This document shows, in pieces, positions 19,639 through 56,488 of a stretch of DNA of 64,000 nucleotides. The notes below the pieces were generated by a model that saw only the letters and a list, made by a program, of their open reading frames with translations, did not search any database and was not told where the DNA came from. Made by a program: the position numbers and the translations under genes. The DNA comes from Streptomyces graminofaciens (lineage in GTDB: Bacteria > Actinomycetota > Actinomycetes > Streptomycetales > Streptomycetaceae). Positions within the stretch are counted from its first letter, which is position 1. Every line of letters starts with the position of its first letter. The stretch is taken from positions 2,728,001-2,792,000 of the forward strand of contig NZ_AP018448.1 in the NCBI RefSeq assembly GCF_030294945.1. The letters run 5' to 3'.

Positions 19639-19675
19639 GGCCTCTCCCACCTCGCCGGCACTTTCCCGTCCAGCG

Positions 19676-22827: not shown

Positions 22828-24096
22828 CTACGCCGTAGCGAGTACCTGGACGGTGTCGCCCAAGGTGTCCGCCACTTCCTTCCACTCGGTGAGGGAGATC
22901 GTCAGGGGTGGCAGGAGCTTCAGTACATGCCCCGACCCCGAGGTCTCGGCGACGATGCCGGCGCGGAACAACGCCTCCCGTATCCGCTCGGCCGTCCCGG
23001 GGGCGGGGAATCTCAGTCCGCTCATCGCTCCCTTGCCGACGACTTCGGCGGCACCCACCGGGAGGGCGTCGGTGATGCTCGCGAGGCTGGTGCGGATCGC
23101 GGCGGTCAGTTCGGCGGTGTGGTCGGTGAAGTGCGGGTCGGTCCAGTGGTCCAGTGCCGCGGAGCCTGCCACGAAGGCGAGGTTGTGGCCACGGAACGTG
23201 CCGTTGTGCTCGCCGGGGGCCCAACGGTCGATCTCGCGCCGGATCAACAGCGCCGCCATCGGAAGCCCCATTCCGCTGAGGGACTTCGACAGGCAGACCA
23301 GGTCGGGCCGGAGTTCGGGGGCGTCCTCGAAGCTGAAGAAGGTACCGGTGCGTCCGCAGCCCGCCTGGATGTCGTCCACGATGACCAACGTGCCGGTGGC
23401 GTCGGCGAGTTCACGGATCCGGGCCAGCCACGCGCGGGGAGCGGTGTGCAGTCCGCCCTCGCCCTGGACCGTCTCCAGCAGGACCGCGGCGGGCGGGGCC
23501 GTCGCCGCGCCCGGGCCGAGGGCGTGTTCCAGGGAGGCGAACGGATCGGGCTCGGCCGCGTCGCCGTACGGGAGGATCGTGACGTCGGTCAGAGGTACGC
23601 CCGCCGCGCCGCGCAGCAGGGGGGAGGTCGTGGCGGCGAGGGCGCCGAGGGACGCGCCGTGGAAGCCTCCGGTGAAGGCGATCACCTCGGTGCGGCCGGT
23701 GACCTTTCGGGCCAGCTTCAGGGCGGCCTCGACGGCGAGCGTTCCGGCCGGTCCGGGGAACTGGACGACGTGGTCGCCGAGGCCGCGCGGCTGAAGGACG
23801 AGGCTGGTGAACCGCTCCAGGAAGTCGGCCTTGGCCGTGGTGTGCAGGTCCAGCGACTGCACCGGGCCGCCGGCCGCGAGGTAGGCCGTCACCCGTTCGA
23901 CGATCTCGGGCGGATTGTGGCCGTAGTTGAGCGAGCCGGCCCCGCACAGCAGGTCCACATAGCGGCGCCCCGAGGTGTCCCACAGATGGTGTCCGGCGGC
24001 TCGTTCGAAGACCACCGGGAAGCCGCGGCAGTAGCTGCGTACGTTCGACTCGTGACGTTCGAACACCGCGAGAGGCGTCCGGTCGGTCTCGGTCAT
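22828..24096 (-). CDS. 2,4-diaminobutyrate aminotransferase, EctB-like
   Basis: A 422-residue class-III PLP aminotransferase that closely follows EctB, which converts aspartate 4-semialdehyde plus glutamate into L-2,4-diaminobutyrate (Dab). Key segments: LLCGAGSLNYGHNPPE, TGRTEVIAFTGGFHGASLGAL, LIVDDIQAGCGRTGTFFSFE with the PLP Asp, SKSLSG with the Schiff-base Lys, and WAPGEHNGTFRGHNLAFVAG. No ectA or ectC is nearby, so ectoine is not the goal. As last gene of the NRPS operon (60-base gap after the oxygenase gene) it most likely supplies Dab as a building block. None of the adenylation codes I read clearly asks for Dab, so its place in the product is open. Confidence 0.9.
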   Translation of the reverse strand: MTETDRTPLAVFERHESNVRSYCRGFPVVFERAAGHHLWDTSGRRYVDLLCGAGSLNYGHNPPEIVERVTAYLAAGGPVQSLDLHTTAKADFLERFTSLVLQPRGLGDHVVQFPGPAGTLAVEAALKLARKVTGRTEVIAFTGGFHGASLGALAATTSPLLRGAAGVPLTDVTILPYGDAAEPDPFASLEHALGPGAATAPPAAVLLETVQGEGGLHTAPRAWLARIRELADATGTLVIVDDIQAGCGRTGTFFSFEDAPELRPDLVCLSKSLSGMGLPMAALLIRREIDRWAPGEHNGTFRGHNLAFVAGSAALDHWTDPHFTDHTAELTAAIRTSLASITDALPVGAAEVVGKGAMSGLRFPAPGTAERIREALFRAGIVAETSGSGHVLKLLPPLTISLTEWKEVADTLGDTVQVLATA

Positions 24097-24156
24097 GTCA
24101 GCACGTACCTTTCATCGATTCTCGTAACGCGTCGCGGACCGACGTCACTTGAGGGG

Positions 24157-25158
24157 TCACTTGACCAGCACCGTTCCGTCACCGGGACGGTGGTCGCGGG
24201 AACGGCGCAGGTCGCTGAAGGCGAAGGTCCGCTGGAGCCAGCGGTCGAGGCCGTCGTAGCGCGGCGTGAACGCCGAACGGCCGTGCAGGGTTGTCCGGTT
24301 GTCGACGACGGCGAGGTCGCCAGGGCGCAGCAGCACCCCGGTGTACGTGCGGTGCGCCATCTCGGCCAGTTCGGCGAGGGCGGCCCGGCCCTCGGGGGTC
24401 ACCGCCTTGGTGGCCGCCTCGTCGAGGCACCAGTCGGGGTCGTCCGGGTCGCCGGTGAGCACGGCGTGCGCGGTGCCCTCGCCGGCCGGGCCGAAGGACG
24501 GCGGTGCCTCGGTGATGTACTCGGGCCTGCCGAGCGCATCCCTGGTGCCGGGTGTCAACAGCGGCAGGACGCGTCGGGCGCAGCTGGTGCGCAGTTCGGC
24601 CGTGCCCTCGTGGTCGCGGCGCAGGCACAGCAGCATGACGTAGTCGGGGCGGTGGGGGTGGAAGGCGTTCTCGGTGTGGAAGGTGAGTTCGACCGAGCCG
24701 ACGTTGCCCTGGACGGTCTCCTGGCCGGGCACCGGCACGACGTCCTGGACGAGGGCGCCGGACTTCTCCGCCGCGAACGCGGCCGGGTCACCGAGCCCGG
24801 CCGCGAACAGCAGCAGCGTCGCCGCGGGCAGGGACGGGCCGTGCTGGACCGAGCCCTTCACCATGGGGGTGGGCGGCAGGTGCGCGGCACCGATGGGGAG
24901 CCTCCTGAGGACGAGGGCGCCGTCGGGGCCGGAATGCCTGCGGAACTCCCTGACGGTGCGCCGTATTTCGGCGGGGACGTCCTCCCAGGCGTGCCGGGCG
25001 AGGGCCACCCATGCCGGGTCGTCGACCCGGTCGCCCGCCTGGTCCAGCAGTTCCGCCGCCACATGTCCGAGCCGGGCCAGTGTGCGGGCGTCGTACCGCA
25101 CCGTGCCGTCGGCGCTCGCCGGGGCGTACGGTGCCTGCGTCATGTCGACGCTGCTCAC
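24157..25158 (-). CDS. Fe(II)/2-oxoglutarate oxygenase, clavaminate-synthase-like (AsnO/VioC type)
   Basis: A 333-residue non-haem iron oxygenase of the family that beta-hydroxylates amino acids (AsnO on asparagine, VioC and OrfP on arginine). The iron-binding His-x-Glu is seen in LTFHTENAFHPHRPDYVMLL and the distal His in DNRTTLHGRSAF. RYDGLDRWLQRTF holds the Arg that binds 2-oxoglutarate. GTG at 25158 is chosen because AAGGGAA precedes it at seven bases; an in-frame ATG lies five codons later. Because modules 4 and 5 of the NRPS read as Asn-type, beta-hydroxylation of Asn (free or carrier-bound) is the best guess. MbtH lies 32 bases upstream. Confidence 0.9.
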   Translation of the reverse strand: MSSVDMTQAPYAPASADGTVRYDARTLARLGHVAAELLDQAGDRVDDPAWVALARHAWEDVPAEIRRTVREFRRHSGPDGALVLRRLPIGAAHLPPTPMVKGSVQHGPSLPAATLLLFAAGLGDPAAFAAEKSGALVQDVVPVPGQETVQGNVGSVELTFHTENAFHPHRPDYVMLLCLRRDHEGTAELRTSCARRVLPLLTPGTRDALGRPEYITEAPPSFGPAGEGTAHAVLTGDPDDPDWCLDEAATKAVTPEGRAALAELAEMAHRTYTGVLLRPGDLAVVDNRTTLHGRSAFTPRYDGLDRWLQRTFAFSDLRRSRDHRPGDGTVLVK

Positions 25159-25190
25159 GTGCGTGTTCCCTTTCGTCCGCTGCGTCCGCG

Positions 25191-25400
25191 TCACTCGCCC
25201 ATGGCCCGGACGAGGCTCTTGGGGCGCAGGTCGGTCCACTCGCGCTCGACGTACTCCAGGCAGGCGGTGCGGCTGTCCGGGCCGAAGACGGTGGTCCAGC
25301 CGGCGGGCACGGCGGTGAAGTCGGGCCACAGCGAGTGCTGGCCTTCGTCGTTGGCCAGGACCCGGTAGGTGCCGTCGGGGTTCTCGAAGGGGTTGGTCAT
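25191..25400 (-). CDS. MbtH-like adenylation-domain chaperone
   Basis: A 69-residue MbtH protein, the small partner that binds NRPS adenylation domains and lets them fold or work. The family pattern is complete: [26 protein letters not shown], the invariant Trp in PAGWTTVFG, and the C-terminal [17 protein letters not shown]. The ATG at 25400 lies 202 bases after the NRPS stop on the same strand. It would serve the four cis adenylation domains and possibly the trans A-T protein. Confidence 0.97.
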
Positions 25401-25602
25401 GACGGATCGGTGTTCCTTTCGGGAGCCGGGAGGCGCTGCGCCTCCCGGTGTGGGGAATTTGGGCCACGGTTCCGGCCGGTGGTCCGGGCGGTGTGGCCGG
25501 TCATCAGGGACTCGCGCGAGCCGTCCACCGGCGGTCGGTGCGAGTGGCCGGAGGGGTGCTCGGAGGAAGCCGGGCCACCGAGGCCGGTCCGCGCGGCTCG
25601 CC

Positions 25603-28600
25603 TCACCGTTCGACGAAGTCCCAGTAGCGGGAGATCGCGGCCTCGTCGATGTCCGGGATCGCGACCGCCAGATCCCGCAGGCGCTGAAGCGTCCTGTCGT
25701 TCTCGAACTCCAGGGTCGGCCGCTGTGGTTCCGGAGCGTTCCTCGCGTGCTCTTCGAGATACGCCTGGTAGGGCAGGATCGGCAGATCCTGTCCCCGTTC
25801 GCTCGCGCGCCGCAGGCGGTGCAGCCACACGGTGAGCGGGACCGCTTCGGAGACCGTTCCGCGCATCCGGTCGTAGCCGCTCATGAAGACACCGGCTCCG
25901 ACCCTGCGCGGGTGGTGGAGGTGGTGCACACGGGCGGTTCCCGTCCCGGTCAGGATCAGCCCGGCGACGGCGCGAGCCAGGACATCGACGGGGAGCAGCG
26001 TTTCCTCCAGATCCGGTCCGACCGGATGGCAGCCGAGCGCGGCGCAACTGGTGAGCAGTCGGGAGAACATGTCGTCCGGGCTGACGGCACCGGTCGAGGT
26101 ATGCGCCCAGATGCGGCCGAGCCGGTGGATGCCGCCGACGGCCCCCCGCTCGAAGGCACGCTCCACGAGCCGGTCCGCGACCCATTTGCTCGCCACGTAC
26201 CCGTTTCCGAACGGGTGTTTCTCTCCGTCGATCGGTGAATCCTCCGTGACCAGCCGGGAGTCCTGGCCGAGCCCGAACACACCGAGGGTGGAGAGGTGGT
26301 GAAACGCTTTCGGCCGGCCTTCGGCGGCCAGGCGCAGCAGGGTCCGGGTGCCCTCCACGTTGGCCGGTTTCAGCCGGGTGTACGGGGAGAGGTGATGGAC
26401 CTGTGCGCCGCTGTGGACGATCGTGTCGACCCGCTCGCGCAGCCTCGCCCAGTCCGCGGGTTCGAGGCCGAGGTCCACTGCCGCCAGGTCCCCCCGGACG
26501 ACGTTCAGCCGCGGATCGTCCGGCGTCGGCCCGAGGTCGATGCCGTAGCGCCGCAGGGCCCCGGTCAGCCGCTCGCCCGCCTCGGCGTCGGTCCGCGCAC
26601 GGACGAGGCAGTGCACCCGCGCCGATGTCCGGTGCAGCAGCTCGGCCAGGAGGAAGGCTCCGACGAACCCCGTGGCCCCGGTCAGCAGAACCTCCTGAGG
26701 ACCACCGGCATGCGGGTCGGCATGCGGCACCTCGGGTGGGCCGACGGGGGATGTGCCGGACGTGAAGCGCAGGGCGGGACTCAGCTCGGCTTCCGAGTCC
26801 GGCACCCACGACGAAGCGTGTGGGCCGCCCTCCGTGAGGTGGCTGGCCAGTCCCGCCGGGGTCGGTGCTTCGAGAAGCGCCGACAGGCTGAAGCGGACCG
26901 CCAGCGTCTCACCGATCCGGCCGGCCAGACGGACGGCGAGCAGGGAGTGACCGCCCAGCGCGAAGAAGTCGTCGTCGGCGGAGACCTCGGGCACCCCCAG
27001 CACCTCGGCGAACAGCCCGCACAGCAGGGCCTCCCGTTCGGTCCGCGGCGCCCGGCCGGTACCGGCGGCGGTGTCCGGCGGGGCGGGCAGTGCCCTGCGG
27101 TCGAGCTTGCCGTTGGCGTTCAGCGGGATCGCGTCGACCTCGACGAACGCGGACGGTACGAGGTGGGCAGGGAGGACGGTGGCGAGCCGGGCCTTCAACT
27201 CCTCGGCCACCAGCGGTGTTTCGGCGACGAAGTACGCCACCAGCCGCTGGTCGCCCGGACGGTCCTCGCGGGCGATCACGGCGGCTCGGGCCACCCCGTC
27301 GAGCGCGGTCAGCGCGGTCTCGATCTCGCCGGGCTCGATCCGGTAGCCCCGGATCTTGACCTGGTCGTCGACGCGTCCGGCGTACTCCAGCACCCCGGCG
27401 CGGTTCCAGCGGGCCCGGTCGCCCACCCGGTACATGCGGGTGCCGGGCGGGCCGTACGGGTCGGCGACGAAGCGTTCGGCGCTCTGGCCGGGCCGACCGG
27501 CGTAGCCGCGGGCGAGGCCGGTGCCGGCGAGGTACAGCTCGCCCCACACCCCGTCGGGGACGGGCTGGAGGTGGTCGTCGAGCACGTAGACGCGCGCGCC
27601 CGCGATGGGGCGGCCGATGGGCACCGGTCCCGCGCCGAGGTCGTCGTCCGGTTCGAGCCGGTGGACGACGCAGCCGACGGTCGCCTCGGTCGGGCCGTAC
27701 TCGTTGATCACCACCGCCTTGGGGTGCCGCTCGCGCCACGCCTGGAGGGCGGTGCCGTCGAGGGCCTCGCCGCCGATGACCAGGTTGCGGGTGTCGCTGA
27801 CGCGGTCGGGCAGCGACTCCAGCAGCCGTAGATGGCTCGGGGTGACCTTGAGCAGGTCGGGGGTGGGTGTGTCCTCGTCCAGTTCCCCGAACCGCACCCG
27901 GCCGCCCGTGATCAGCGGCGTGAACAGCGTGGTCACCGGCATGTCGAAGGCGAGGGAGGTGTGGACCAGGGACTCGCCCGAGGCGGCCGGGTACATCGCC
28001 GCGGCCTCCGTGAGATAGGCGGCGAGCGAACCGTGTTCGACGACCACTCCCTTCGGGCGGCCGGTCGATCCGGAGGTGTAGATCAGGTAGGCGGCGTGGT
28101 GGGGGTGGACGGGCAGGCCCAGGTCGCTGTCGGGGAGATGGTCCAGGGCGGCCGGGGAGGTCTCCTCGTCGAGCACGATCCGCGCGCCCGCGTCGGCGAC
28201 CAGCGCGTCGATCCGCGCCTGCGGGTTGGCCGGGTCGATCGGCAGGTAGGCGGCCCCGGTCTTCAGGACCGCGAGCAGTGCCACGATCACCTCCGGGCGG
28301 CGCGGCAGGACCACGGCGACGACGGTCTCCGGTCCGGCGCCGAGCGTGATCAGGTGCCGGGCCAGCCGGTTGGCGCGGCGGTTCAGCTCCTCGTACGTCA
28401 GCTTCGTACCGTCCGAGAACTCCGTACCGTCCGCACCATCCCTTCCCTCCGCAACGACGGCCACGGCGTGCGGGGTGCGCGCCGCCTGTGCCTCGAACAT
28501 CTCGGGCAACGACATCTGCGGCAGCTGCCGGGCGGTGCCGCCCCGCCGGACGAGCACGTCGTCGCGTTCGGCGGGGGTGAGCAGGGGCAGGGCGTGCAGG

Positions 28601-31600
28601 GGACGCGCCGGGTCTGCGGTCACCTCCTCCAGCAGGCGCAGATAGCGGGTGGCGACGCTCTCGGCGGTGGCTCGGTCGAACAGGTCCGAGGCGTACTCGA
28701 CCTGTCCGGACCAGCCGCCCTCGGCGCTCTCGGTGAGCGTCAGGGACAGGTCGAACTTGGCGTGGTCGCCGTGCACGTCCCCGAAGGTCACCTCAAGTCC
28801 GGGCAGCGTGGGGGCGATCGCCTCCTGATTGGCGGTCAGCATGGCCTGGAACAGGGGGTGCCGGGCGCGTGAGCGCGCCGGGTTGAGGGCCTCGACCAGT
28901 TGCTCGAACGGCACGTCGGTGTGGTCGTACGCCGCCACGTCCGCCGCTCGCACCCGGTCGAGCAGTTCCTCGAAGGTGGGGTCGCCGGAGGTGTCGGCAC
29001 GCAGCACGAGGGTGTTGGCGAAGAGCCCGACGAGGTCTTCGAGCGCGGTGTCCGGGCGGCCTTCCACGGGCGTTCCGATCACGATGTCGTCGCCGGCGCC
29101 CAGCCGGTTCAGCAGGGTGACGAGCGTGGCGTGCAGCACCATGAAGGCGCTGGCGCCCCGGTCCCGGCCGAGCGCGTCGACCCGGCCGCGCAGTCCGGCC
29201 GGCACCGTGAAGGGCACCGTGCCACCGCGCTGGGACGCGACGGCGGGCCGGGGCCGGTCGGCGGGCAGCTCGGTCTGGTCGGGGATGCCGGCCAGCTCCC
29301 TCGTCCAGAAGTCGAGCCGGTCGGCGGGCAGTTCCCGCTCCCACAGGGCGTAGTCGGCGTACTGGAGGGGCAGCGGAGCCCAGTCGGGGGCGCGGCCGGC
29401 GAGGCGGGCGGCGTAGGCCGTGGAGAGGTCCTCGGCGAGGGGCCGCATGGACGTGCCGTCGCCCGCGATGTGGTGCAGGAGCAGCAGCAGGACGTGTTCC
29501 CGCTCTCCGTCGGTGAACAGCACGGCTCGGACGGGTGGTTGGTGGTCCAGGGAGAACGGCATCCGGGCGGCGTCCGCCACCCCCGCGTCGAAGTCGGCCG
29601 GGTCGCACGACCGGATCGCGAAGCGCGGCTCCGTGTCGACGACGACCTGGTGCGGCCCCTGGGGGCCCTCGGCGATGACCGTGCGCAGTACTTCGTGGCG
29701 CCGCACCAGGTCGCCGAAGGCGTCGCGCAGGGCGTCCCGGTCGAGGGTGCCGGTCATCCGCAGGACGACGGGGATGGTGTACGTCTGCGACGGGCCCTCG
29801 AGCCGGTCGAGGAACCACATCCGTCGCTGTGCCGCCGACAGGGGCACCCGCTCGGGGCGTTCGCGCCGGACGAGCGGGGGCCGGAAGGAGGTCTGCGTCG
29901 GGCGGCCCGACAGCAGTTCCGCGAGTCCGGCGACGGTCGCGTGCTCGAAGGCCTCCCGGATGGACAGCTCCGCTCCGAGGTCGGTGCGGATCCGGTTGAC
30001 CAGCCGGGCGACGAGCAGGGAGTGGCCGCCGAGGCGGAAGAAGTCGTCGTCGGCACCCACCTCGGGCACGCCCAGGACCTCGGCGAACACGTCGGCGACC
30101 CGCCGCTCCATGCCCTCGGCGGGCGGCCTGCCCGAGCCCTCGGCGGTGAGGTCGGGAGCGGGCAGCGCCTTGCGGGCGATCTTGCCGTTGGCGGTCAGCG
30201 GCAGGGTGTCCAGCACGACGAACGCGGCCGGGACCATGTAGTCGGGCAGGGCCCGCGCCGCTGCGGCGCGCAGGGCGGCCCGGTCCGCCGGGTGCCCCTG
30301 CTCCGGCACCACATACGCGACGAGGCGCTTGTCGCCGGGGGTGTCCTCGCGGACGACCACGGCGGCGGCGTCGATGCCCGGCTGGGCCGTGAGGACGGCC
30401 TCCACCTCGCCGAGTTCGATACGGAAGCCGCGGATCTTCACCTGGTCGTCAACGCGGCTGACGAACTCCAGCCGCCCGGCGGCCGTCCAGCGGGCCAGGT
30501 CACCCGTGCGGTACATCCTGGATCCGGGCGGGCCGAAGGGGCTCGCGACGAAGCGTCCGGCGGTCAGACCGGGTCGGCCGTGGTAGCCGCGGGTGACGAG
30601 GTCGCCGGCGACGTACAGTTCGCCGGCGGTGCCGACGGGTGCCGGGCGCAGCAGTGCGTCCAGCACGTACATCTGGGTGTTCCAGGCGGGCGTGCCGATG
30701 GTGATGACGCCGGGCGGGACGGGGTCGCCGGGGTCGATGCGGAACAGGCTGCAGCCGATGGTGGTCTCGGTGGGGCCGTACTCGTTGAGGACGGTCACCC
30801 CGGGGTGCCGGGTACGCCAGGCGTCCAGCACGTCTCCGAGGAGGGACTCGCCGCCGAGGACGAGCTGTCCGCCGGGCGAGTACTCCTCGGGCACCACGCC
30901 CAGCAGGTGCAGATGGCTGGGGGTGGCCTTGACGAAGTCGGGTTGGGTGACGGCCGCGTCCGGGTCGGGGCCGCTCGCGGTCCAGCGGACCAGTTCCACG
31001 GTGCCGCCGGAGATCAGCGGGCCGAACATGCCGGTCGCGGTGAGGTCGAAGGAGACCGGCGAGTGCACCAGGACGCGTCGGCGCAGGCTCTCGTACTCGT
31101 GGGTGGCCCAGGCCAGATAGGCGACCAGCGAGCGGTGTTCGACGACGACCGCCTTGGGCCGTCCGGTGGAGCCCGAGGTGAAGATGACGAACGCGGCGTG
31201 CTCGGGCCGCCGGATCACTGCGGTGAGCGGGCCGGACGGCCGTTCCGCGATCGCGGGATCGTCCGTCAGCACGACGGGTGCTTCCGTCAACGAGCCGACG
31301 GTCGCGGCGAGTTCGGCCGTGGTGACCACGGCTACCGGCGCGATGTCCGCCAGCATGAAGGCGAGCCGGTCGGCCGGGTGCGCCGGGTCCAGTGGCAGAT
31401 AGCCGGCGCCCGTCTTCAGAGCGGCCAGCAGGGTCACCGGGATGTCCTCGGAGACCGGCATCAGCACGGCGACGTAGCGCTCCGGACCGGCTCCCAGGTC
31501 GATCAGGTGCCGGGCCAACCGGTTGGCACGGGCGTCGAGTTCGGCGTACGACAGCTCCGTGGTGCCGAAGACGACGGCGGCCTCGTCCGGGGTGCGGGCG

Positions 31601-41964: not shown

Positions 41965-41966
41965 GG

Positions 41967-42251
41967 TCAGACCTGCTTCTCGCTCGCCGGTGCCGCTGCC
42001 GGCTGCCCGCCGACCAGCTCGGACAGGACCGTGCCCAGCGCGTCGACCGTCGGGTGGTCCCAGGTCAGCGCGTCGTCGACGGTCACCTCGAACTCGTCCT
42101 CGATGTCGGCGGTGATGGCCAGCGCCGTCAGCGAGTCCAGGCCGTAGTCGGCCAGCGGGACGGTCGTGTCGATGTCTTCCGGCGAACGGCGCAGGTAGGT
42201 CGCCACGCGCTCCGTCAACCAGGTGTGCACGTCTCGGTTGCCAGCGGTCAT
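41967..42251 (-). CDS. Acyl carrier protein for the lipid starter
   Basis: A 94-residue free-standing [11 protein letters not shown] carries the Ser that takes phosphopantetheine, and the surrounding [18 protein letters not shown] and [14 protein letters not shown] are typical ACP helices. It is the likely carrier of the fatty acid activated by the FAAL and dehydrogenated by the two acyl-CoA-dehydrogenase-like enzymes, then handed to C1. The stop is separated by two bases from the NRPS start, so the two are translated in tandem. A weak GA-rich site (AAGAAAGAG) precedes the ATG. A 176-base gap separates it from the upstream gene. Confidence 0.93.
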
Positions 42252-45837: not shown

Positions 45838-47588
45838 CGCGCGGTCACCCGCCGGTGTTCGGCCAGGGCCGCGGTGAGCAGCTGGTCCTCGCCGAGGTGG
45901 AGGGTGTCCAGTTCTCCGGCGAGGTAGAGGGCGCGCATCGCCGAGCGCTGCACCTTGCCGCTCGTGGTCCGCCGGACGCCGCCGGGCCGCACCAGGGCGA
46001 CCGCCGCGACGGGGACGCCGAACTCCCGGGCCACGGTCTGCTTCATGTCGACGGCGATCTCGCTCAGCCGCTCGGCACCCCAGTGCGCGCGGATCTCGTG
46101 GACGGCGACGATCGCAGGAGCGGTGTCCGGCCCGTCGTCGTCCCCGACCATGAAGACGGCCCCGTGCATGCCCCCCAACTCTTCGTGCTGGCAACGCAGT
46201 TCGTACTCGATGTCCGCAGGGTGCAGATTGCGCCCGTGCAGGATGAGGACGTCCTTGCACCGGCCCGTGATGTAGACGTCACCGTCGAGCAGACCGCCGA
46301 GGTCACCCGTGCGCAGGAACGGCCCGCGTCCGTCGTCGGTGTGTGCCCGGAACGTGGCGTCGGTGGCCCGCTCGTTCTCCCAGTAGCCCGCGGTGACGCA
46401 CGGGCCGCTGAGCCAGATCTCGCCGATGCGGCCGTCGGGCTGGGCCTCCCCGGTGTCGGGGTCGACGATCAGCACGTCGGACCCGGTCGGCGCCCCGCAT
46501 CCGACGAGCACACGGGACGGTTCCGTGCCCTCGGCCGGCCGCAGCACACGGTTCTCCAGCGCCGAGGCGTCGACGGTGGTACGCAGGGGTGCCCGCCCGG
46601 TGGTGGCCGAGGCCATCAGAGTCGCCTCGGCCAGGCCGTACACGGGTATGAGCGCGTCGGGCCGCAGTCCCGCGGCGGCGAACCTCTCGGTGAAGGCGGT
46701 GACCACGTCGGCGCGGACCGGTTCCGAGCCGTCGGCGGCCTTGACCCGGGACAGGTCGAGGGTGGCGAGCTGTTCGTCGGTGACCCGCCGGACACACAGT
46801 TCGTAGCCGAAGTCGGGCGCGGCGGTGAATCCGACGTCACAGGCGTCCAGCATCCGCAGCCAGTGGTACGGGCGGCGCAGGAAGGACATGGGGTCCATCT
46901 GGACGTACCCGTTGCCGGACAGGAGGCCGGGCAGCATCAGGCCGATCAGCCCCATGTCGTGGTATAGGGGGATCCAGCCGCCGTACGTCGTGCCGCTGTC
47001 GTTCCCGAACGCGTCCACCATCCGCTCGACGTTGGCGACCAGATTGCCGTGGGTGACCATGACGCCCTTGGGGTCGCCGGTCGATCCCGAGGTGTACTGG
47101 AGCAGTGCCAGGGTGTCGGGCGACACCTCGGGAGCGGTCCAGGCGTCCGGGTCTCCGTCACCGGCGTCGGTCGTGTGGCAGACCACCCCGACGATGCCCT
47201 CCTCGGCGACCCACTTCGCCACGTCCGGCAGATCGCTCTGCTGGGTCAGGACGACATTCACCCCCGCGTCGCGGGCGATGGCGGCGAGTCTGCGGCGCTC
47301 GTGCCGGTAGCGGCCCGGCAGCGGGGCGGGCACGGCGATGACGCCGGCGTAGACGCAGGCGGAGAAGGCGGTCGTGAATTCGATCCCCGGAGAATAGAGG
47401 AGAAGCACCCGCTCTCCTGGGGAGAATCTCTCCTGGAGCCAGGATGCGATACGCCGTGAATGCTGATCGAGTTCCGCACGACTGCGCACCGTGCAGCTGA
47501 TCTCACTGAATTCGGAAACGAAGGTCACAGCAGGCTGCTGCGGATTACGCGCTGCCTGTTCCCTCAGCGTCGTGAGTAATTCTGGCAC
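45834..47588 (-). CDS. Fatty acyl-AMP ligase (FAAL), lipid starter activation
   Basis: A 584-residue adenylate-forming enzyme of the FAAL class, which loads fatty acids on carrier proteins rather than CoA. YTSGSTGDPKGVMVTHGNL is the P-loop, GWIPLYHDMGLIG and FLRRPYHWLRML are FAAL-type motifs, LAEATLM follows, and RTGDLGGLLDGDVYITGRCKD leads to the hinge. The GTG start at 47588 (MPELLTTLREQAARNP) is my choice. A TTG at 47639 is possible, but the extra codons have poor third-position GC. Codon 4 is TTA, so translation should need the bldA tRNA. First gene of the minus arm, divergent from the exporter. Confidence 0.93.
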   Translation of the reverse strand: MPELLTTLREQAARNPQQPAVTFVSEFSEISCTVRSRAELDQHSRRIASWLQERFSPGERVLLLYSPGIEFTTAFSACVYAGVIAVPAPLPGRYRHERRRLAAIARDAGVNVVLTQQSDLPDVAKWVAEEGIVGVVCHTTDAGDGDPDAWTAPEVSPDTLALLQYTSGSTGDPKGVMVTHGNLVANVERMVDAFGNDSGTTYGGWIPLYHDMGLIGLMLPGLLSGNGYVQMDPMSFLRRPYHWLRMLDACDVGFTAAPDFGYELCVRRVTDEQLATLDLSRVKAADGSEPVRADVVTAFTERFAAAGLRPDALIPVYGLAEATLMASATTGRAPLRTTVDASALENRVLRPAEGTEPSRVLVGCGAPTGSDVLIVDPDTGEAQPDGRIGEIWLSGPCVTAGYWENERATDATFRAHTDDGRGPFLRTGDLGGLLDGDVYITGRCKDVLILHGRNLHPADIEYELRCQHEELGGMHGAVFMVGDDDGPDTAPAIVAVHEIRAHWGAERLSEIAVDMKQTVAREFGVPVAAVALVRPGGVRRTTSGKVQRSAMRALYLAGELDTLHLGEDQLLTAALAEHRRVTAR

Positions 47589-47728
47589 AACAGGAACCGT
47601 ACGTGATCTTGGTTCCCGAACCCGTAGTGAAAGCTTCAAGCAAACCTAAAGCAAGGCCATCGAACGCACAAGAAACCTTGACGCTTCCATGATCGACCAG
47701 GGTCGGAGGCAAGGCGTAGAACGGATCC
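47589..47728. promoter_or_regulatory. Divergent promoter region of the lipopeptide cluster
   Basis: These 140 bases separate the FAAL and exporter genes and must start both arms. TAGAAC at 47717-47722 lies seven bases before the GTG of the exporter gene, which would give a leaderless transcript. GGAGG at 47705-47709 is too far (19 bases) to be its ribosome binding site. TTGACG at 47678-47683 is a possible -35-like hexamer. The segment is visibly less GC-rich than its surroundings. No clear operator palindrome was seen. Confidence 0.45.
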
Positions 47729-48691
47729 GTGCATACGCCAGCCACGTCGACCATCGTCATCGACGGTCTCCACAAGAAATATCGGGCAAACCATGCGTTA
47801 CGAGGTGTCGACCTGGAGGTAAAAGCAGGCGAGGTCATGGGCCTGCTGGGGCCGAACGGCGCCGGTAAAACCACTCTGGTGAAGATTCTGACGACGCTCC
47901 TCAGGCCCGACTCCGGACACGCCTTCGTGAATGGCTGGAATGTGGCGGAAGAACCGGAGCAGGTACGCTCCAGCATCGGAATGGCGGGCCAGTACTCGAC
48001 GGTCGACGGGATTTTGACCGGATTCGAGAATCTGTACCTCATCGCGAAACTGCGCGGTGTGGGCCGCCGTACGGCCCGCCGTGTCGCCGCCGATCTGCTG
48101 GATCGGTTCCGGCTCACCACCGTGGCGGGGCGCCCGGCCGGCGCCTACTCCGGCGGTATGCGCCGACGGCTGGACCTGGCCGCCGCCCTCGTCGGCTCCC
48201 CGCCCCTGATAGTCCTGGACGAGCCGACCACCGGACTCGATCCCGAGAGCAGGCTCGACACCTGGGACGCGGTCGGTGAGCTGGTCGCCGGTGGTACGAC
48301 GATCCTGCTGACGACCCAGTACCTGGAGGAGGCGGACCGTCTCGCCGACCGGATCACCGTGATCGACCGGGGCCAGGTGGTGGCGGAGGGCACCAGCGAC
48401 GAACTGAAGGCAGCCGCCGGAGACCGGCTCGTCCTGTGTGTCGCCGAGGACCACCAGCTCGACGCGGCGGCACGCGCCGCCGCACGGGCCACCGGCGCGC
48501 CTGTGACGGTGGACCGCCGCGCCCGGCGGGTGGAGGTGGCCGCCGCCGACGGCCGGGCCGCTCTGAGCCGTGCCCTCACCGAGCTGGCGGACGAGGATGT
48601 CGAGGTACTGGAGATCGGGCTCAGCCGCCGCACCCTCGACGACGTGTTCCTCGGCCTGACCGGCCGCGCCCGCCGGGAGGCGACGCGATGA
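47729..48691 (+). CDS. ABC exporter ATPase, DrrA-type
   Basis: A 320-residue ATP-binding subunit of the daunorubicin-resistance type. Walker A GPNGAGKTT, signature YSGGMRRRLDL, Walker B PLIVLDEPTTGLDPESR, and the switch His replaced by Gln in LLTTQYLEEADRL, as in DrrA itself. The C-terminal ~90 residues are the extra DrrA-type domain. The start is a GTG at 47729. An in-frame TTA at 47798-47800 (codon 24, in NHALRG) makes it bldA-dependent. The stop overlaps the permease start (ATGA). It should power export of, and self-resistance to, the lipopeptide. Confidence 0.95.
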   Translation: MHTPATSTIVIDGLHKKYRANHALRGVDLEVKAGEVMGLLGPNGAGKTTLVKILTTLLRPDSGHAFVNGWNVAEEPEQVRSSIGMAGQYSTVDGILTGFENLYLIAKLRGVGRRTARRVAADLLDRFRLTTVAGRPAGAYSGGMRRRLDLAAALVGSPPLIVLDEPTTGLDPESRLDTWDAVGELVAGGTTILLTTQYLEEADRLADRITVIDRGQVVAEGTSDELKAAAGDRLVLCVAEDHQLDAAARAAARATGAPVTVDRRARRVEVAAADGRAALSRALTELADEDVEVLEIGLSRRTLDDVFLGLTGRARREATR

Positions 48692-49581
48692 CCGCGCCCA
48701 CCGACGTCAAGCGGACCGGCGCCCCGTACGGCGCACTCGCCACCGGCCTCCCCTCGCCCGTGGTCCCGACCCGCGCCCGCCGCGATCCGGTGCTCCGTGT
48801 CATCACGGAAAGCACGGACCTCGCCCTGCGCAACCTGCTGCACCTGCGGCGCACTCCGGGAGTGCTCGTCTCGTGCCTGGTCGAGCCGGTCGTGTACGCC
48901 CTGCTCATCGGGTACATCTTCGGCAACAGCCTGGGCGGCACAACCTACCGCTCGTACATGTTCGCCGGGCTGATCGCCCAGACCGTGGCCTTCACCACCA
49001 CCTTCACCACGGTCGGGCTCTCCAGGGACCTGGACCAGGGCATGGTCGACCGCTTCCGTACGCTGCCGATCTCCCGGGTGGCCCTGCTGCTGGGCCGGAC
49101 GACCTCCGACCTCACGACCTGCGTGGCCAGCCTCGCCGTCACCACCACATGCGGTCTGCTGATGGGCTGGCGCATACACACCGGCCCCGTCGAAGTGGCC
49201 GCCGGCATCCTGCTGGTGCTGCTGTTCTCCTTCGCGATGTCGTGGATCGGCGTCTTCGTCGCCCTCATCTCGCCGAACTCCCAGGTGGCCGGGAGCCTCG
49301 GGGTGATCTGGCTGTTCCCGGCGACGTTCATCTCCTCCGGGTTCGTCTCCGGCGCGACCCTCCCCGGCCCGCTGTCCACCGTGGCTGCCTGGAACCCCAT
49401 CACCTCGCTCGCGAACGCCCTGCGCGGGCTCTTCGGCAACCCGCCCCCGCCGGGCTTCGCCGCACAGCACGCCTGGCCCACCCATCACCCGGAGCTGTAC
49501 ACCGTGGGCTGCTCGGTGCTGCTCATCGCCGTCTTCACCTCCCTCTCGACATGGCGTTACCGCACCCGCACGAGCCGCTGA
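48688..49581 (+). CDS. ABC-2-type exporter permease, DrrB-type
   Basis: A 297-residue membrane subunit with about six transmembrane helices. After a ~45-residue cytoplasmic N-terminus come PGVLVSCLVEPVVYALLIGYIFG, SYMFAGLIAQTVAFTTTF, LTTCVASLAVTTTCGLLMG, VAAGILLVLLFSFAMSWIG, VIWLFPATFISSGFV and VGCSVLLIAVFTSL. GLSRDLDQGMVDRFRTLPISR is the coupling region typical of this family. It partners the ATPase encoded immediately upstream (four-base overlap). Confidence 0.93.
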   Translation: MTAPTDVKRTGAPYGALATGLPSPVVPTRARRDPVLRVITESTDLALRNLLHLRRTPGVLVSCLVEPVVYALLIGYIFGNSLGGTTYRSYMFAGLIAQTVAFTTTFTTVGLSRDLDQGMVDRFRTLPISRVALLLGRTTSDLTTCVASLAVTTTCGLLMGWRIHTGPVEVAAGILLVLLFSFAMSWIGVFVALISPNSQVAGSLGVIWLFPATFISSGFVSGATLPGPLSTVAAWNPITSLANALRGLFGNPPPPGFAAQHAWPTHHPELYTVGCSVLLIAVFTSLSTWRYRTRTSR

Positions 49582-49669
49582 CCACGGCCAGGACCGAGTG
49601 CGGTGCCCCGACCGCCCCGCGCCGGGCCCGGACACCGACCCCGGCCCTCGCGCCCGCACAGGAGTTCCC

Positions 49670-50791
49670 ATGACCGTTCCCACCCTGCGTCTCGGCCTCA
49701 ACCTCGGCTACTGGGTCGGAGGCAATGACGCGTCCAACATCTCGCTCGCCTCCCTGGCCGAGGAGCTCGGCTACTCGTCGGTGTGGGTCTCGGAGGCCTA
49801 CGGATCCGACGCCGTCACCGTGCTGTCCTGGATCGCCGCCCGCACCTCCCGCATCGACGTCGGCAGTGCGGTCCTGCAGATCCCGGCCCGCTCGCCCGCG
49901 ATGACGGCGATGACCGCCGCCACCCTCGACACCCTGTCCGGCGGACGGTTCAGGCTCGGCCTCGGCGTGTCCGGTCCCCAGGTCTCGGAGGGCTGGCACG
50001 GCGTCGGATTCGGTTCGCCGCTGGGCCGTACCCGCGAATACGTCGACCTGGTGCGCCGCGCCCTGCGCCGGGAACCGCTGGAGTACGAGGGCAGGCACTT
50101 CACGCTTCCGCTGCCGGACGGCCCCGGCAAGGCGCTCACCCTGACCATCCGTCCGCCGCGCGAGCGGATCCCGGTCTACCTCGCCGCCCTCGGCCCGAAG
50201 AACCTGGAACTGGCCGGGGAGATCGCCGACGGCTGGCTCCCGGTGTTCTTCTCCCCCGCCCACGCCGTCAAGCAGCTCGAACCCCTCCGGGCCGGCCTCA
50301 CCACGTCCGGGCGCACCCTCGACGGGTTCGACATCGCCCCCTGCGTACCCCTGGTGACCGGCGCCGACTGGCAGGCCTGTGCCCGGCGGGTACGGGGGTA
50401 CGCCGCGCTGTACCTCGGTGGCATGGGCGGCCGGGAGGACAACCACTACACCCAGCTGGCCGAGCGCATGGGCTTCGGCCCTCAGGCCCGTACCGTCCAG
50501 GACAGGTTCCTGGCCGGTGACTACCCGGGCGCCATGGCCGCCGTACCGCTCGAATTCCTCGACGCCACCTCGCTGCTCGGGCCGCGGGAGCGGATCGCCG
50601 AGCGGATGACGGCGTTCGCCGAGGCCGGCGCCACCACGCTCAACCTCATGCCGGTCGGCCCCGGGCTGCCCGGCCCGGACCGCGCCGCCGCCGCGCTGCG
50701 CGTGGCCGCGGAGGCCGCGGAACTCGCGGGCGTGCTCGCCTCCGGTCCCACCCCGCCAAACCCCCGACCCCAAGGCGCACACGACGCGTAA
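49670..50791 (+). CDS. Luciferase-like (LLM class) flavin oxidoreductase, possibly F420-dependent
   Basis: A 373-residue TIM-barrel enzyme of the bacterial luciferase superfamily. LRLGLNLGYWVGGNDASNI, ELGYSSVWVSEAYGSDAVTVL, LQIPARSPAMTAMTAATLDTL, SGGRFRLGLGVSGPQVSEGWHG and YLAALGPKNLELAGEIADGWL are the familiar strand motifs of F420-using members. In peptide clusters such enzymes can act as monooxygenases or dehydrogenases on amino acids or on carrier-bound intermediates. AGGAG precedes the ATG at 49670. It sits with thioesterase, SDR and A-T genes, so I infer tailoring of the trans-loaded residue. Which cofactor is used is not settled by the sequence. Confidence 0.88.
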   Translation: MTVPTLRLGLNLGYWVGGNDASNISLASLAEELGYSSVWVSEAYGSDAVTVLSWIAARTSRIDVGSAVLQIPARSPAMTAMTAATLDTLSGGRFRLGLGVSGPQVSEGWHGVGFGSPLGRTREYVDLVRRALRREPLEYEGRHFTLPLPDGPGKALTLTIRPPRERIPVYLAALGPKNLELAGEIADGWLPVFFSPAHAVKQLEPLRAGLTTSGRTLDGFDIAPCVPLVTGADWQACARRVRGYAALYLGGMGGREDNHYTQLAERMGFGPQARTVQDRFLAGDYPGAMAAVPLEFLDATSLLGPRERIAERMTAFAEAGATTLNLMPVGPGLPGPDRAAAALRVAAEAAELAGVLASGPTPPNPRPQGAHDA

Positions 50792-50874
50792 GGCGTGCCC
50801 GCCTCCGACCTCACCCCGCAAGACGCCTGCCTCCCCAAGGCACACACACGACTCGCAAGGAGACACCCGCACCC

Positions 50875-51588
50875 ATGACCACCCCTGACACGACCAAGCT
50901 GATCTGCCTCCCCTACGCCGGAGCGGGCGCCTCGTTCTACCGCCCCTGGACGGCCCTCGCCGGGGACGCGCTGGAGATCGTGGCTCTGCAACTGCCCGGC
51001 CGGGAAAGGCTGATCGACGAGGAGCCCTACCATGACGTGCACACGGCCACGGACGGACTCCTGGCCCAGCTGCGGGAACGGCTCGGCGACGGCGACGACC
51101 ACCGAGTCGTCCTGTTCGGGCACAGCCTCGGCGCCGTGCTCGCCTACGAACTCGCCCACCGGCTGGTCGCCGAAGACGACATCGAGCTCGTCCACCTGTT
51201 CGTCAGCGGATCCCCGGAACCCTCCCTCGGACGCGAACGGCACGCCACCGGCCTCTCCGACGAGGACTTCCTCGCTCGCGTCGGCGAGTTCGCGGGCTAT
51301 CACCATCCCGCGCTCGACGACCCGGAGATGCGCGCCATGATCCTGCCCACCCTGCGCGCGGACGTCGAGATGCACGAGGCCTACACGCCCAGCACCGACC
51401 TGCCGCTTCAGGCGCCGCTCACCGTCATCCGGGGCGAGGACGACGACCTGGTCGACTACGAAGACGCCGCGGCCTGGAGCAAGGCGGCCGGGGAGGACTT
51501 CGAGCATGTCGAGGTCCCCGGCGGCCACATGTACCTGGCCGACTCCGCCCCCTCGCTGGTCCGCCTGATCGTCTCGACGGTGCTGTAG
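50875..51588 (+). CDS. Type II thioesterase (alpha/beta hydrolase)
   Basis: A 237-residue external thioesterase. FGHSLGAVLAYEL places the nucleophile Ser at residue 84. ICLPYAGAGASFYRPW and LQLPGRERLIDEEPY are standard type II motifs, and the catalytic Asp (GEDDDLVDYEDA) and His (VPGGHMYL) are present near the end. It usually removes wrong acyl groups from carrier domains. In syringomycin assembly a related enzyme instead moves an aminoacyl group from a stand-alone A-T protein to an A-less module, and that job is possible here too. ATG at 50875 has AAGGAG upstream. Confidence 0.92.
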   Translation: MTTPDTTKLICLPYAGAGASFYRPWTALAGDALEIVALQLPGRERLIDEEPYHDVHTATDGLLAQLRERLGDGDDHRVVLFGHSLGAVLAYELAHRLVAEDDIELVHLFVSGSPEPSLGRERHATGLSDEDFLARVGEFAGYHHPALDDPEMRAMILPTLRADVEMHEAYTPSTDLPLQAPLTVIRGEDDDLVDYEDAAAWSKAAGEDFEHVEVPGGHMYLADSAPSLVRLIVSTVL

Positions 51589-51639
51589 CCCCGCCTCCCC
51601 TCCTCAGCACGACACCCAGACTCTCCCAAGGAGCATCCG

Positions 51640-52464
51640 ATGCGTTTGCACGGCAAGTCGGTCCTCGTCACCGGCGCCGCCCGCGGGCTCGGCCGGGCCG
51701 CCGCGGTCGCCTGCGCGGCCGAGGGCGCCGACCTCACGCTGCTGGACATCTGCGCCGACCTGCCCGGGGTGCCCTATCCGCTGGGCACCCCGGGCCAGTT
51801 GGAACACACCGCCGCACTGTGCCGGGAGGCGGGCGCCGCCGTCCTCACCGCCGAGACCGACATCCGCGACCTGTTCGCCGTACGGGAAGCGGTGACCCGG
51901 GCCGAGGACCGGTTCGGCCGGATCGACGTGGTCGTCAACAGCGCGGGCGTCGCCGCGCCCTCCGGCAAACCGGTGCACGAGATCGACGAGGACGAGTGGT
52001 CCCTGATGATCGACGTGGACCTCTCCGGGGCCTGGCGGGTGATGCGCGAGGTCGGCAAGGCGATGAGCGCCCGGCGCGCCGGCAGCATCGTCAACGTCGC
52101 CTCCACCGCCGGACTCGTCGGCTACCGGCACTTCGCCGGCTACGTCGCCGCCAAGCACGCCGTGGTCGGCCTCACCAAGGCCGCCGCGCTCGACTACGCG
52201 CCGACGAAGGTACGCGTGAACGCGGTCTGCCCCGGCTCGGTGCGCGACGACGTCCGGGCCGAGGGCCGGATGCTCGCCGAGATCGCCAGGGCACTGGACG
52301 TACCGGTGCACGAACACGAGAAGACCTTCGTCGAGGCCCAGCCCATGAACGCCCTGATCGAACCCGAGGACGTCGCCGCCGCGGTCGTCTTCCTGGCCTC
52401 CGACGAGTCCCGGCAGATCACCGGGTCGGTCCTGACCGTGGACGGCGGGTTCAGCATCCGCTGA
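51640..52464 (+). CDS. Short-chain dehydrogenase/reductase (tailoring)
   Basis: A 274-residue classical SDR. VLVTGAARGLGRAAAV binds NAD(P). NSAG, the catalytic Ser in NVASTAGLVG, and YVAAKHAVVGL with Tyr and Lys are intact. The insert between strands 2 and 3 (DICADLPGVPYPLGTPGQL) is like that of mycofactocin-coupled SDRs, although no mycofactocin genes are in the window. AAGGAG precedes the ATG at 51640. With the neighbouring LLM enzyme it could oxidise or reduce a beta-carbon of the residue held on the A-T protein, as the NovJ/NovK pair does on beta-hydroxytyrosine. That is inference from position. Confidence 0.9.
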   Translation: MRLHGKSVLVTGAARGLGRAAAVACAAEGADLTLLDICADLPGVPYPLGTPGQLEHTAALCREAGAAVLTAETDIRDLFAVREAVTRAEDRFGRIDVVVNSAGVAAPSGKPVHEIDEDEWSLMIDVDLSGAWRVMREVGKAMSARRAGSIVNVASTAGLVGYRHFAGYVAAKHAVVGLTKAAALDYAPTKVRVNAVCPGSVRDDVRAEGRMLAEIARALDVPVHEHEKTFVEAQPMNALIEPEDVAAAVVFLASDESRQITGSVLTVDGGFSIR

Positions 52465-52530
52465 CCCCGCCGAGCACGACGAGTCCGCGGGACCACGCGG
52501 ACGACTCCCCCGAACAACAAGGAGTACGCC

Positions 52531-55314
52531 TTGTCCGCCTCTCTGTCCGACCCCCTCCCCGACGAGATCCCCCAGGGTCCCGAGCCCGGCGGCGCCCCGC
52601 GCGTCCTCGGCGGTTTCGGTGACCCCGGCGCCCGCTGCCACGCGCTTCGCGTCCGCTGGGAGCGCTCCCCCCACACCGCCGAGCGGTCGGAGACATGGAC
52701 CGAGGACCTCCCCGTACCGGCGGCCGACCCACGCGCCGAACGCCGCCGCGCCACCGAACTCGCGCGACCGTCCGACGGCGTGCGCCGGGTGCTCCTCCGC
52801 TACAGCGACGGCCGGTCCGACCTGATCGTCGTCGCCCCGCGCGAGCGATGGGGCCGCGGGGCCCTCCACCGGCTCGCCGACGGGCGGCCCGTCCCACCGA
52901 GCGAGGCCACCCCCGCACCCCGGGCGTCCACCCGCCCGCCCGCCGCGCCCGCCTGGGGGCTGGGCGGCGGCGACGGCCCCACCTCCTCGTCCGTCCTCCT
53001 CACCCTGGAGGACGAGGCGGGCGACGAGGCCAGTTGGCTGACGGCGCTCGACGTCACCCTGCGCCGGTACGATCCCGAGACCGAGCCCGTCATCGGCACC
53101 GACCACGGCACCTTCACCATCGAACCCGCCCACACGCTCGGCGAGCTGAAGCCCTCCCCCGCCACGGGCCCCGCACTGGCGGGCCTGCTCTTCGAGGGCA
53201 CCGGCGGCACGGAGTTTCCCGGCGAGGGCGAGGGCGAACGCGGAGCCGCGAGGGTGGCCGGAGCCGGGGACGAAACCGCCTTCGAGACCGAGTACGTGCC
53301 CTGCCTCGCTCCGCCGTTCCCGCTCACCCTCTCGGTCTTCCGGGACTCCGGTGGCCTACGGCTGCGCTGCGACCACCTGGGCAGCCACTTCTCCTCGGAG
53401 ATCGCCGCGCAGTTCGTACGGCACCTCGCCCACGTACACGGGCAGGTCCTGCGCTCCCCGCAGACCCCGGTCGACGACGTCGAGCTCCTCGACGAGGCCG
53501 AACGCGCCCGCACCGCGGCGCTCGGTCGGCCGACCCGCACCCTGGTGACCACTGAGGAGAGCATCCCCGAGGCGGTCGCCCGCGCGGCGGCGGCGACACC
53601 CGACGCCATCGCCGTGACCGACGGGGCGGCGGGCCTGACCTATCGCCGACTCGAGGAACAGGCCGACCTGTTGGCCCGCGGCATGCGGGCCCGTGGAGTC
53701 GTCGGCGGCGACCGTGTGGGCGTGTGCCTGGAGCGCTCCGCCGAACTCGTCGTCGTCCTGCTCGCCGTGCTGAAGGCCGGCGCGACCTACGTCCCCGTCG
53801 ACCCCGCCTACCCGAAGGACCGGATCGCCCACACGGCGCAGGACGCCGAGCTGGGTGTGGTGGTCACCCGGCTGCCGGAGTTTCCGGCGGTGCCGGGCTG
53901 TGTGGCGCTGACCCCGGACGAGTTGCTGGACGCCGCGACGTCCGGGACGGACGACACGCCGCTCCCGTTCCCCTCCTCCGACACCGCCGCCTACGTCATC
54001 TACACCTCCGGCTCCACCGGCCGCCCCAAGGGTGTCGTCGTACCGCACAGCAATGTGATCGCCCTGATCGACGCGACGCGCGACGAGTACGGGTTCGGCG
54101 CCTCGGATGTGTGGACCTGGTTCCACTCCAGCGCCTTCGACCTGTCGGTGTGGGAGATCTGGGGCTGCCTCGTGACGGGCGGACGGGTGGTCGTGGTGCC
54201 GTACTTCGTCTCCCGCGAACCCGACAGCTTCCGCGACCTGCTCGTCGCCGAGAAGGTCACCGTGCTCAGCCAGACCCCGTCGGCCTTCGCCCAACTCCTG
54301 CGCGTCGACCACAGCGACGTGTCCGTCCGGCTCGTCGTCTTCGGCGGCGAACCGCTCGACGCGCGCATGCTGCTGCCCTGGTTCGACCGGCACCCCGAGT
54401 CGGTGTGCCGGATGGTGAACATGTTCGGCATCACCGAGACGACGGTCCACGTCACCGAGCAGACCCTCACCCGGAAACTGGCCCTGGCCGCCACCCGCTC
54501 CGTCGGGCCCGCCCTGCCCGGCTGGCACCTGTACGTGACGGACCCGGCCGGACGACTGCTGCCGCCCGGAGTGGCCGGCGAGATCTGCGTCGGCGGCGTC
54601 GGAGTCGCGCTCGGCTATCTGGGCCGGCCGGACCTGACCGCGCAGCGGTTCGTACCGGACCCGTTCACCGGCGGCATCATGTACCGCAGCGGCGATCTGG
54701 GACGCCTCCGCCCGGACGGCCGTCTCGAACACCTCGGGCGCATCGACAGCCAGGTGAAGATCCGCGGCTTCCGCATCGAGCTGGACGAGATCCGCTCGGT
54801 CCTGCTGGAGGACCCGGACGTGCGGACGGCCGCCGTCGTCGTGCGCCGCGTCGATCCGGCCGATGCCGCCACAGCCAGGATCGACGCGTACGTGGTCCTG
54901 TCGGCCGGGGGCGACCCTCGCGCCGTCCGCGAGCGGGCCGCGGGCATCCTGCCCGACCACATGCTCCCCGCCACGGTCACCTCCCTGGACGCGCTCCCGC
55001 TGACGGCCAACGGAAAGCTCGACGCGCAGCGGCTCCCCGCACCGGCGGCGCCCCTCTCACCGGCGCGGGACACTGTCCCCGGCGCGGGCGACGCCGACCT
55101 CACCGAACGGCTGCGGGAGATCTGGAGCGAGGTGCTGGGCGTGCCGGTCGGCCTGGACGACGACTTCTTCGGCCTGGGCGGCAACTCCCTGTTCGCCGTC
55201 CGCATAGGCGCGGCCCTGCGCGCGCAGGGCCTGCCGTCGCTGCGGCTGAAGGAGCTGTACCGTCATCCGACCATCCGGGAAACCGTCAACAGCCTCGTGA
55301 CCTCGGACAGCTGA
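52531..55314 (+). CDS. Stand-alone A-T NRPS protein with degenerate condensation-like N-terminus
   Basis: A 927-residue protein from a TTG (52531) with AAGGAG upstream. Residues 1-340 look like a decayed condensation domain: the end (SLFRDSGGLRLRCDH-type strand, then VDDVELLDEAERARTAALG) matches a C-A junction, but there is no HHxxxDG. Residues about 350-840 are a complete adenylation domain ([35 protein letters not shown]), and 850-927 a carrier domain (GGNSLFAVRI). The code reads DLWSVFMVHK, seven of ten positions as in Thr codes (DFWNVGMVHK). Ramoplanin and enduracidin use such an A-T protein to feed a module lacking its own A domain. Here it is the natural partner of NRPS module 2. Confidence 0.9.
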   Translation: MSASLSDPLPDEIPQGPEPGGAPRVLGGFGDPGARCHALRVRWERSPHTAERSETWTEDLPVPAADPRAERRRATELARPSDGVRRVLLRYSDGRSDLIVVAPRERWGRGALHRLADGRPVPPSEATPAPRASTRPPAAPAWGLGGGDGPTSSSVLLTLEDEAGDEASWLTALDVTLRRYDPETEPVIGTDHGTFTIEPAHTLGELKPSPATGPALAGLLFEGTGGTEFPGEGEGERGAARVAGAGDETAFETEYVPCLAPPFPLTLSVFRDSGGLRLRCDHLGSHFSSEIAAQFVRHLAHVHGQVLRSPQTPVDDVELLDEAERARTAALGRPTRTLVTTEESIPEAVARAAAATPDAIAVTDGAAGLTYRRLEEQADLLARGMRARGVVGGDRVGVCLERSAELVVVLLAVLKAGATYVPVDPAYPKDRIAHTAQDAELGVVVTRLPEFPAVPGCVALTPDELLDAATSGTDDTPLPFPSSDTAAYVIYTSGSTGRPKGVVVPHSNVIALIDATRDEYGFGASDVWTWFHSSAFDLSVWEIWGCLVTGGRVVVVPYFVSREPDSFRDLLVAEKVTVLSQTPSAFAQLLRVDHSDVSVRLVVFGGEPLDARMLLPWFDRHPESVCRMVNMFGITETTVHVTEQTLTRKLALAATRSVGPALPGWHLYVTDPAGRLLPPGVAGEICVGGVGVALGYLGRPDLTAQRFVPDPFTGGIMYRSGDLGRLRPDGRLEHLGRIDSQVKIRGFRIELDEIRSVLLEDPDVRTAAVVVRRVDPADAATARIDAYVVLSAGGDPRAVRERAAGILPDHMLPATVTSLDALPLTANGKLDAQRLPAPAAPLSPARDTVPGAGDADLTERLREIWSEVLGVPVGLDDDFFGLGGNSLFAVRIGAALRAQGLPSLRLKELYRHPTIRETVNSLVTSDS

Positions 55315-56482: not shown

Positions 56483-56488
56483 GTGCCG

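Follow-up and report, generated by a model that had tools for sequence, protein, structure and literature searches.

Rotihibins inhibit plant growth, a low concentration being sufficient, and the closest described system to the locus presented here is the rotihibin (rth) cluster of Streptomyces scabies 87-22 (SCAB_3221-3351; PMC8552735). Rotihibins C and D, with published m/z of 860.47 and 874.47, were characterized there by tandem mass spectrometry and nuclear magnetic resonance as cis-2-decenoyl peptides with citrulline (Cit), Thr, diaminobutyrate (Dab) carrying allo-Thr, hydroxyasparagine (OHAsn) and asparaginol, while rotihibin A has Ser at the position of Thr in C and D, and its Cit is D and its other residues L. 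Deletion of rthB in S. scabies abolished rotihibins, and rth clusters are known in both pathogenic and plant-protecting species (PMC8552735). Cello-oligosaccharides lower rotihibin production, and a role as phytotoxins in disease has been questioned in that they may not act so (PMC8914351). Table 1 of PMC8552735 lists RthB as a unimodular nonribosomal peptide synthetase (NRPS), RthC as a short-chain dehydrogenase/reductase (SDR), RthD as a type II thioesterase, RthE as an F420-dependent oxidoreductase and RthF/G as an exporter, followed by the fatty acyl-AMP ligase (FAAL) RthH, the acyl-CoA dehydrogenases (ACADs) RthI and RthJ, the acyl carrier protein (ACP) RthK, the pentamodular NRPS RthA, the MbtH protein RthL, the AsnO protein RthM and the diaminobutyrate transaminase RthN. 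Here we describe a cluster of 32,487 bases (22828-55314) within a 64,000-nucleotide stretch of Streptomyces graminofaciens (the window; C1:2728001-2792000 of an 11.6-Mb single-contig genome), which is almost certainly the E form of the rotihibin cluster, with five modules and a reductase end.

The gene list of PMC8552735 is that of the window, in the window's order. The two clusters share the same 14 genes, the module layout, a second module without an adenylation (A) domain, a reductase (R) domain that ends RthA in both, and RthE. A genome scan with RthM independently returned S. scabiei 87.22 and further species that PMC8552735 names. By tblastn, identity between window and S. scabiei proteins runs from 69% (RthB) to 95% (RthM); for RthA a separate comparison gave 85.2% across 5429 residues. 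The nine-residue A-domain pocket codes of modules 1, 3 and 5 are identical to those of S. scabiei RthA, and module 4 has a single difference, Ile rather than Val at position 330; the genome position of the cluster differs as well. The window cluster belongs to the E form, defined by rthE present and rthO absent, in that RthE is 86% identical to the S. scabiei protein and the gap between RthA and the MbtH gene is 202 bases, which leaves no room for a cytochrome P450 and hence none for rthO at that place. The earlier note on this DNA had regarded the cluster as unrecognised and had looked to a characterised cluster of the same architecture and known product as the finding that would speak against this; the S. 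scabies rth cluster is one. That the locus encodes a new lipopeptide family has very little left to recommend it, since the divergence of RthA (85% identity) and the failure of the earlier note to name a matching set stand against an identical gene set, gene order and release domain in a characterised cluster. A new compound class was likewise rejected because the same cluster is already published. The cluster is a further rotihibin locus and not a novel one.

The genes, their order and their domains were confirmed at the positions first given for them, and the earlier description also holds of a single assembly line that is primed by a FAAL and ACADs, has five modules, receives one residue in trans and releases its product by reduction. 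They form two divergent groups that meet at ~47.7 kb. On the minus strand, from the centre outwards, lie the FAAL, two ACADs, the ACP, the NRPS, MbtH, an AsnO-type oxygenase and a diaminobutyrate transaminase, while the plus strand holds a DrrA-type ATPase, an ABC-2 permease, an F420-dependent oxidoreductase of the luciferase-like monooxygenase (LLM) class, a type II thioesterase, an SDR and a stand-alone A-T protein (T, thiolation domain). The FAAL, both ACADs, the ACP, the SDR and the DrrAB-type exporter are all present by Pfam or NCBIfam matches. The assembly route below follows the published model, which is itself mostly inferred (PMC8552735), with the exception of RthC, whose assignment is our own by analogy with a proposal for globomycin; percentages are identities to the S. 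scabiei copies. RthH (45834-47639, minus; PF00501; 84%), for which FAAL models rank top in a profile search with none above cut-off, would adenylate a medium-chain fatty acid and load it onto RthK (41967-42251, minus; 86%), where RthI (44146-45837, minus; 74%) and RthJ (42428-44164, minus; 84%), both matching PF00441 and PF02770, would desaturate the acyl chain. RthA (25603-41964, minus) is a five-module NRPS of 5453 residues whose order C-A-T-E/C-T/C-A-T/C-A-T/C-A-T-R (C, condensation; E, epimerization), as read in the earlier note, was borne out by HHxxxDG motifs, T motifs and four A domains in sequence, and by PF07993 for the R domain. Its first C domain would couple the acyl chain to Cit, and the E domain would convert this residue to D-Cit. 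Module 2 (36084-37689, boundaries approximate) consists of C and T only, with the C motif at residue 1560, the T motif at 1904 and the next C motif at 2087.

Downstream of module 2, module 3 would add Dab made by RthN (22828-24096, minus; 91%), a diaminobutyrate-2-oxoglutarate transaminase by NF006733 (507.6 bits, cut-off 438) that misses the ectoine-specific EctB model (484.5 against 552.2 needed). Module 4 would add Asn hydroxylated by RthM (24157-25152, start approximate, minus; 95%), an AsnO-type asparagine 3-hydroxylase with an HxE motif whose best solved relative is the asparagine oxygenase 2og5 (E 5.8e-105; runner-up 6daw, 1.6e-39). A VioC-type arginine hydroxylase was rejected for this gene, AsnO being far closer. 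The same genome carries two more AsnO/VioC-like oxygenases, at G000:C1:1279381 and C1:11484939, with 42% and 37% identity to RthM. Module 5 would add a further Asn, and the R domain (25606-26709, boundaries approximate; PF07993 E 1.3e-58, Rossmann and YxxxK motifs) would release asparaginol. RthL (25191-25400, minus; 91%), which is 64% identical to a gene annotated as MbtH-family at locus L110 and found no NCBIfam match at 1e-10, would assist the A domains, and the product would be exported by RthG (47729-48691, plus; TIGR01188, 319.7 against a cut-off of 312.45) and RthF (48688-49581, plus; PF01061; 81%). Going by the genes, the expected product is cis-2-decenoyl-D-Cit-Thr-Dab(aThr)-OHAsn-asparaginol or a closely related compound. 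The unsaturated acyl cap, the first D residue, the Asn-type residues and the C-terminal alcohol had been anticipated and agree with the published rotihibins C and D, whereas Cit and Dab had not been foreseen; prediction tools assign Glu or Ser to the Cit and Dab modules (PMC8552735).

The residue for module 2 would be supplied by three adjacent plus-strand genes, which probably serve to synthesise allo-Thr, a rare amino acid, and to hand it over. RthB (52531-55314), a stand-alone A-T protein of 927 residues with a Thr-type pocket, would activate Thr; RthC (51640-52464; PF13561, TGxxxGxG and YxxxK motifs), an SDR conserved together with RthD and RthB, is proposed to invert the beta carbon of carrier-bound Thr to give allo-Thr; and RthD (50875-51588; PF00975 E 8.4e-37, GHSLG motif, RifR E 5.1e-38), a separate type II thioesterase that the earlier note did not name, would shuttle allo-Thr to the A-less module. 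The globomycin authors propose for GlobD/E, HmtG/F and WS21/22 that the SDR oxidises and then re-reduces the Thr beta carbon on the A-T protein (PMC9943842). With an SDR, an A-T protein whose pocket is Thr-type and a type II thioesterase standing next to one another, the window resembles the sets of globomycin (GlobC-E), himastatin (HmtF/G) and WS9326A (WS20-22), which share an SDR beside a Thr-preferring stand-alone A-T protein and a type II thioesterase and are likened here by description, not by sequence; the globomycin receiving module keeps its A domain (PMC9943842), whereas rotihibin module 2 has none. The role given to RthC is ours, because the available text of PMC8552735 leaves RthC without an assigned function and PMC9943842 is not among the ten papers containing the word 'rotihibin'.

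To place the three genes in a wider context, the genus was searched for RthD (295 genomes) and for RthC (246 genomes), and plasmids were searched for RthC. The loci with an RthC relative that were examined number 38 (30 of 46 places in the genomes and eight of 14 plasmid records), at 35 of which thioesterase, SDR and A-T gene lie on one strand within the fetched stretch, or 29 of 32 once the six rth rows (L112-L117) are set aside; at L146 the gene order within the cassette differs. As controls, the best 29 SDRs other than RthC were taken from the 73 SDR places in this genome, and none of them has the set: two had a weak (31%) A-domain match nearby, and none a thioesterase match. Relatives of RthB, RthC and RthD occur together outside rth clusters in G242b, G207, G072, G127 and G307, and no RthN, RthM or ACAD matches were found near these five cassettes in the 41-44 kb fetched, mostly on one side of the cassette. 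One of these genomes, G242 (C1:4483161 and C1:10065116; L091-L096), holds a TE-ended (thioesterase-domain-ended) rth cluster with RthE and, elsewhere, a second RthD-C-B cassette, beside which the other rth genes were not found in the fetched stretch. On proteobacterial plasmids, cassettes of type II thioesterase, SDR and A-T protein stand beside NRPS genes in Mycetohabitans rhizoxinica pBRH01 (L109) and in Vibrio tasmaniensis p2 (L142), the latter conjugative by typing. The A-T pocket reads D-F-W-[NS]-[IV]-G-M-V-H in all seven readable loci of the eight on plasmids, a code that we take to be Thr-type. An alternative is that RthC serves acyl-chain or export chemistry and keeps company with RthB and RthD by chance or operon history. 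The rotihibin paper, as far as its available text goes, leaves room for such a role, but the SDR accompanies the thioesterase and A-T gene on the Mycetohabitans and Vibrio plasmids and at loci without FAAL or ACAD in the stretches fetched, which makes this alternative distinctly improbable.

Rather than beginning directly with its A domain, RthB carries an extension of ~330 residues that had also gone unnamed in the earlier note. Its residues ~31-332 are predicted to adopt a shrunken condensation-type fold. The HHxxxDG motif is missing from the extension in the window, in 15 fetched relatives and in 115 database relatives. The stand-alone A-T modules of ramoplanin and enduracidin likewise bear an N-terminal extension of ~300 residues and feed an A-less module (PMC8949500). 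Compared with the PDB by sequence, RthB residues 1-330 returned nothing useful (best E 0.91). The ramoplanin and enduracidin extensions may be homologous to that of RthB, going by the identities of some database matches. Tentatively, and with slightly less than even confidence, we suggest that RthB-C-D is a portable, cross-phylum allo-Thr unit, made up of a Thr-specific A-T protein, a carrier-inverting SDR and a shuttling thioesterase, that moves among unrelated NRPS clusters and plasmids, with the RthB extension a dead, shrunken condensation domain that acts as a docking platform. Such a platform may be likened to the X domain, which recruits P450s in glycopeptide synthesis.

Several observations weigh against the rotihibin assignment and the cassette model as set out above. 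RthB, at 69%, is the least conserved rth protein, and simple complementation of the S. scabies rthB deletion failed to restore production (PMC8552735). Three of the 38 cassette loci miss one partner in the fetched stretch (L128 at a contig end, L132 with no thioesterase match, L133 with no A-T match), and RthB could load free allo-Thr instead of having Thr inverted on the carrier. The RthB pocket of the window also has Leu at residue 236, where S. scabies has Phe, so that the choice between Thr and Ser could differ. This residue is Phe in 12, Leu in two (G091 and G108) and Tyr in one of the 15 fetched relatives, and Phe in 110 and Leu in five of the 115 database relatives. A rotihibin-like product differing at one residue through the changed RthB pocket, either with Ser in place of Thr, the case known from rotihibin A, or with a different RthB-supplied residue, has both this rarity and the Ser/Thr precedent between rotihibins A and C/D (PMC8552735) in its favor. 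The remaining eight pocket positions agree with S. scabiei RthB, however, a single Leu/Phe change is conservative, and we consider such a variant a minor though appreciable possibility beside the Thr-containing product expected above.

RthE (49598-50791, plus, true start may be ~49670; TIGR03559, 372.7 against a cut-off of 335) was considered in relation to chain release. Eighteen clusters were scored for release, six of them Pfam-checked, with RthE sought by tblastn in the fetched stretches; S. ureilyticus was left unscored for RthE as its contig ends, and in S. ipomoeae and S. muensis the cluster is split across two contigs. Nine are R-ended (window, caeruleatus, caniscabiei, scabiei, stelliscabiei, geranii, G091, ipomoeae and muensis) and nine TE-ended (CB02959, Crossiella, Lentzea, violaceorubidus, Actinokineospora, NRRL S-31, G108, G242a and ureilyticus). 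RthE occurs in all nine R-ended clusters and in two of the eight testable TE-ended ones (G108 and G242a); R thus implies RthE in this sample, and the converse does not hold. Forms O and X of the rotihibin cluster, together with such TE-ended relatives as S. sp. CB02959, NRRL S-31, G108 and G242a, in most cases share RthB-C-D, the FAAL/ACP line and the Cit, Dab and Asn-type modules with the window, from which they differ in their thioesterase-domain end, in the patchy presence of RthE and, in several, in extra modules. A TE end would be expected to yield an acid or a cyclic product in place of asparaginol. The term 'TE domain' is absent from the available text of PMC8552735, where modules are counted and the R/TE difference is not mentioned. 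The distribution of RthE, complete among R-ended clusters and lacking from six of the eight testable TE-ended ones, would fit a reductase that converts the R-domain peptide aldehyde to asparaginol. We hold this role to be unlikely, as TE-ended G108 and G242a carry RthE too (92% and 94%) and R domains can perform the full four-electron reduction. An obligate partnership of RthE with the R domain was rejected on account of the same two clusters. Membership in the trans-Thr cassette was also rejected: no close copy lies in G242b, G207, G072 or G127, and G307 has just a 27% LLM match ~27 kb off. The set of trans-supply proteins that the earlier note had put forward accordingly keeps its SDR and A-T protein and loses the LLM enzyme, which has no close copy beside the five non-rotihibin cassettes fetched.

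The surroundings of the cluster hold several further features. Next to RthB, 56102-57685 (plus) encodes adjoining 2Fe-2S and FAD subunits of a xanthine-dehydrogenase-type enzyme, with no molybdopterin large subunit recognised in the ORFs tested directly downstream. Farther out, 58216-60123 (minus) is an ABC exporter gene and ~60475-61266 (plus) a lysylphosphatidylglycerol-synthase-type membrane region in a longer ORF, both outside the rth set. On the other side, ~5.6 kb at 15400-21000 have lower G+C (~0.67-0.68) and few coding-like ORFs; one of nine ORFs tested there had a Pfam match, a GNAT acetyltransferase (17473-18171, minus), and none of the nine matched mobile-element families. An Asp decarboxylase lies at 12594. 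Elsewhere in the genome, a segment of RthA found numerous NRPS-like matches at G000:C1:672691-688335, which is probably a second NRPS cluster.

In summary, the cluster itself carries small weight, and two side results are potentially useful, their interest lying in their bearing on the formation and delivery of allo-Thr. For this question the conserved RthD-C-B set offers a system of three defined proteins, in a pathway known to yield a product with allo-Thr.

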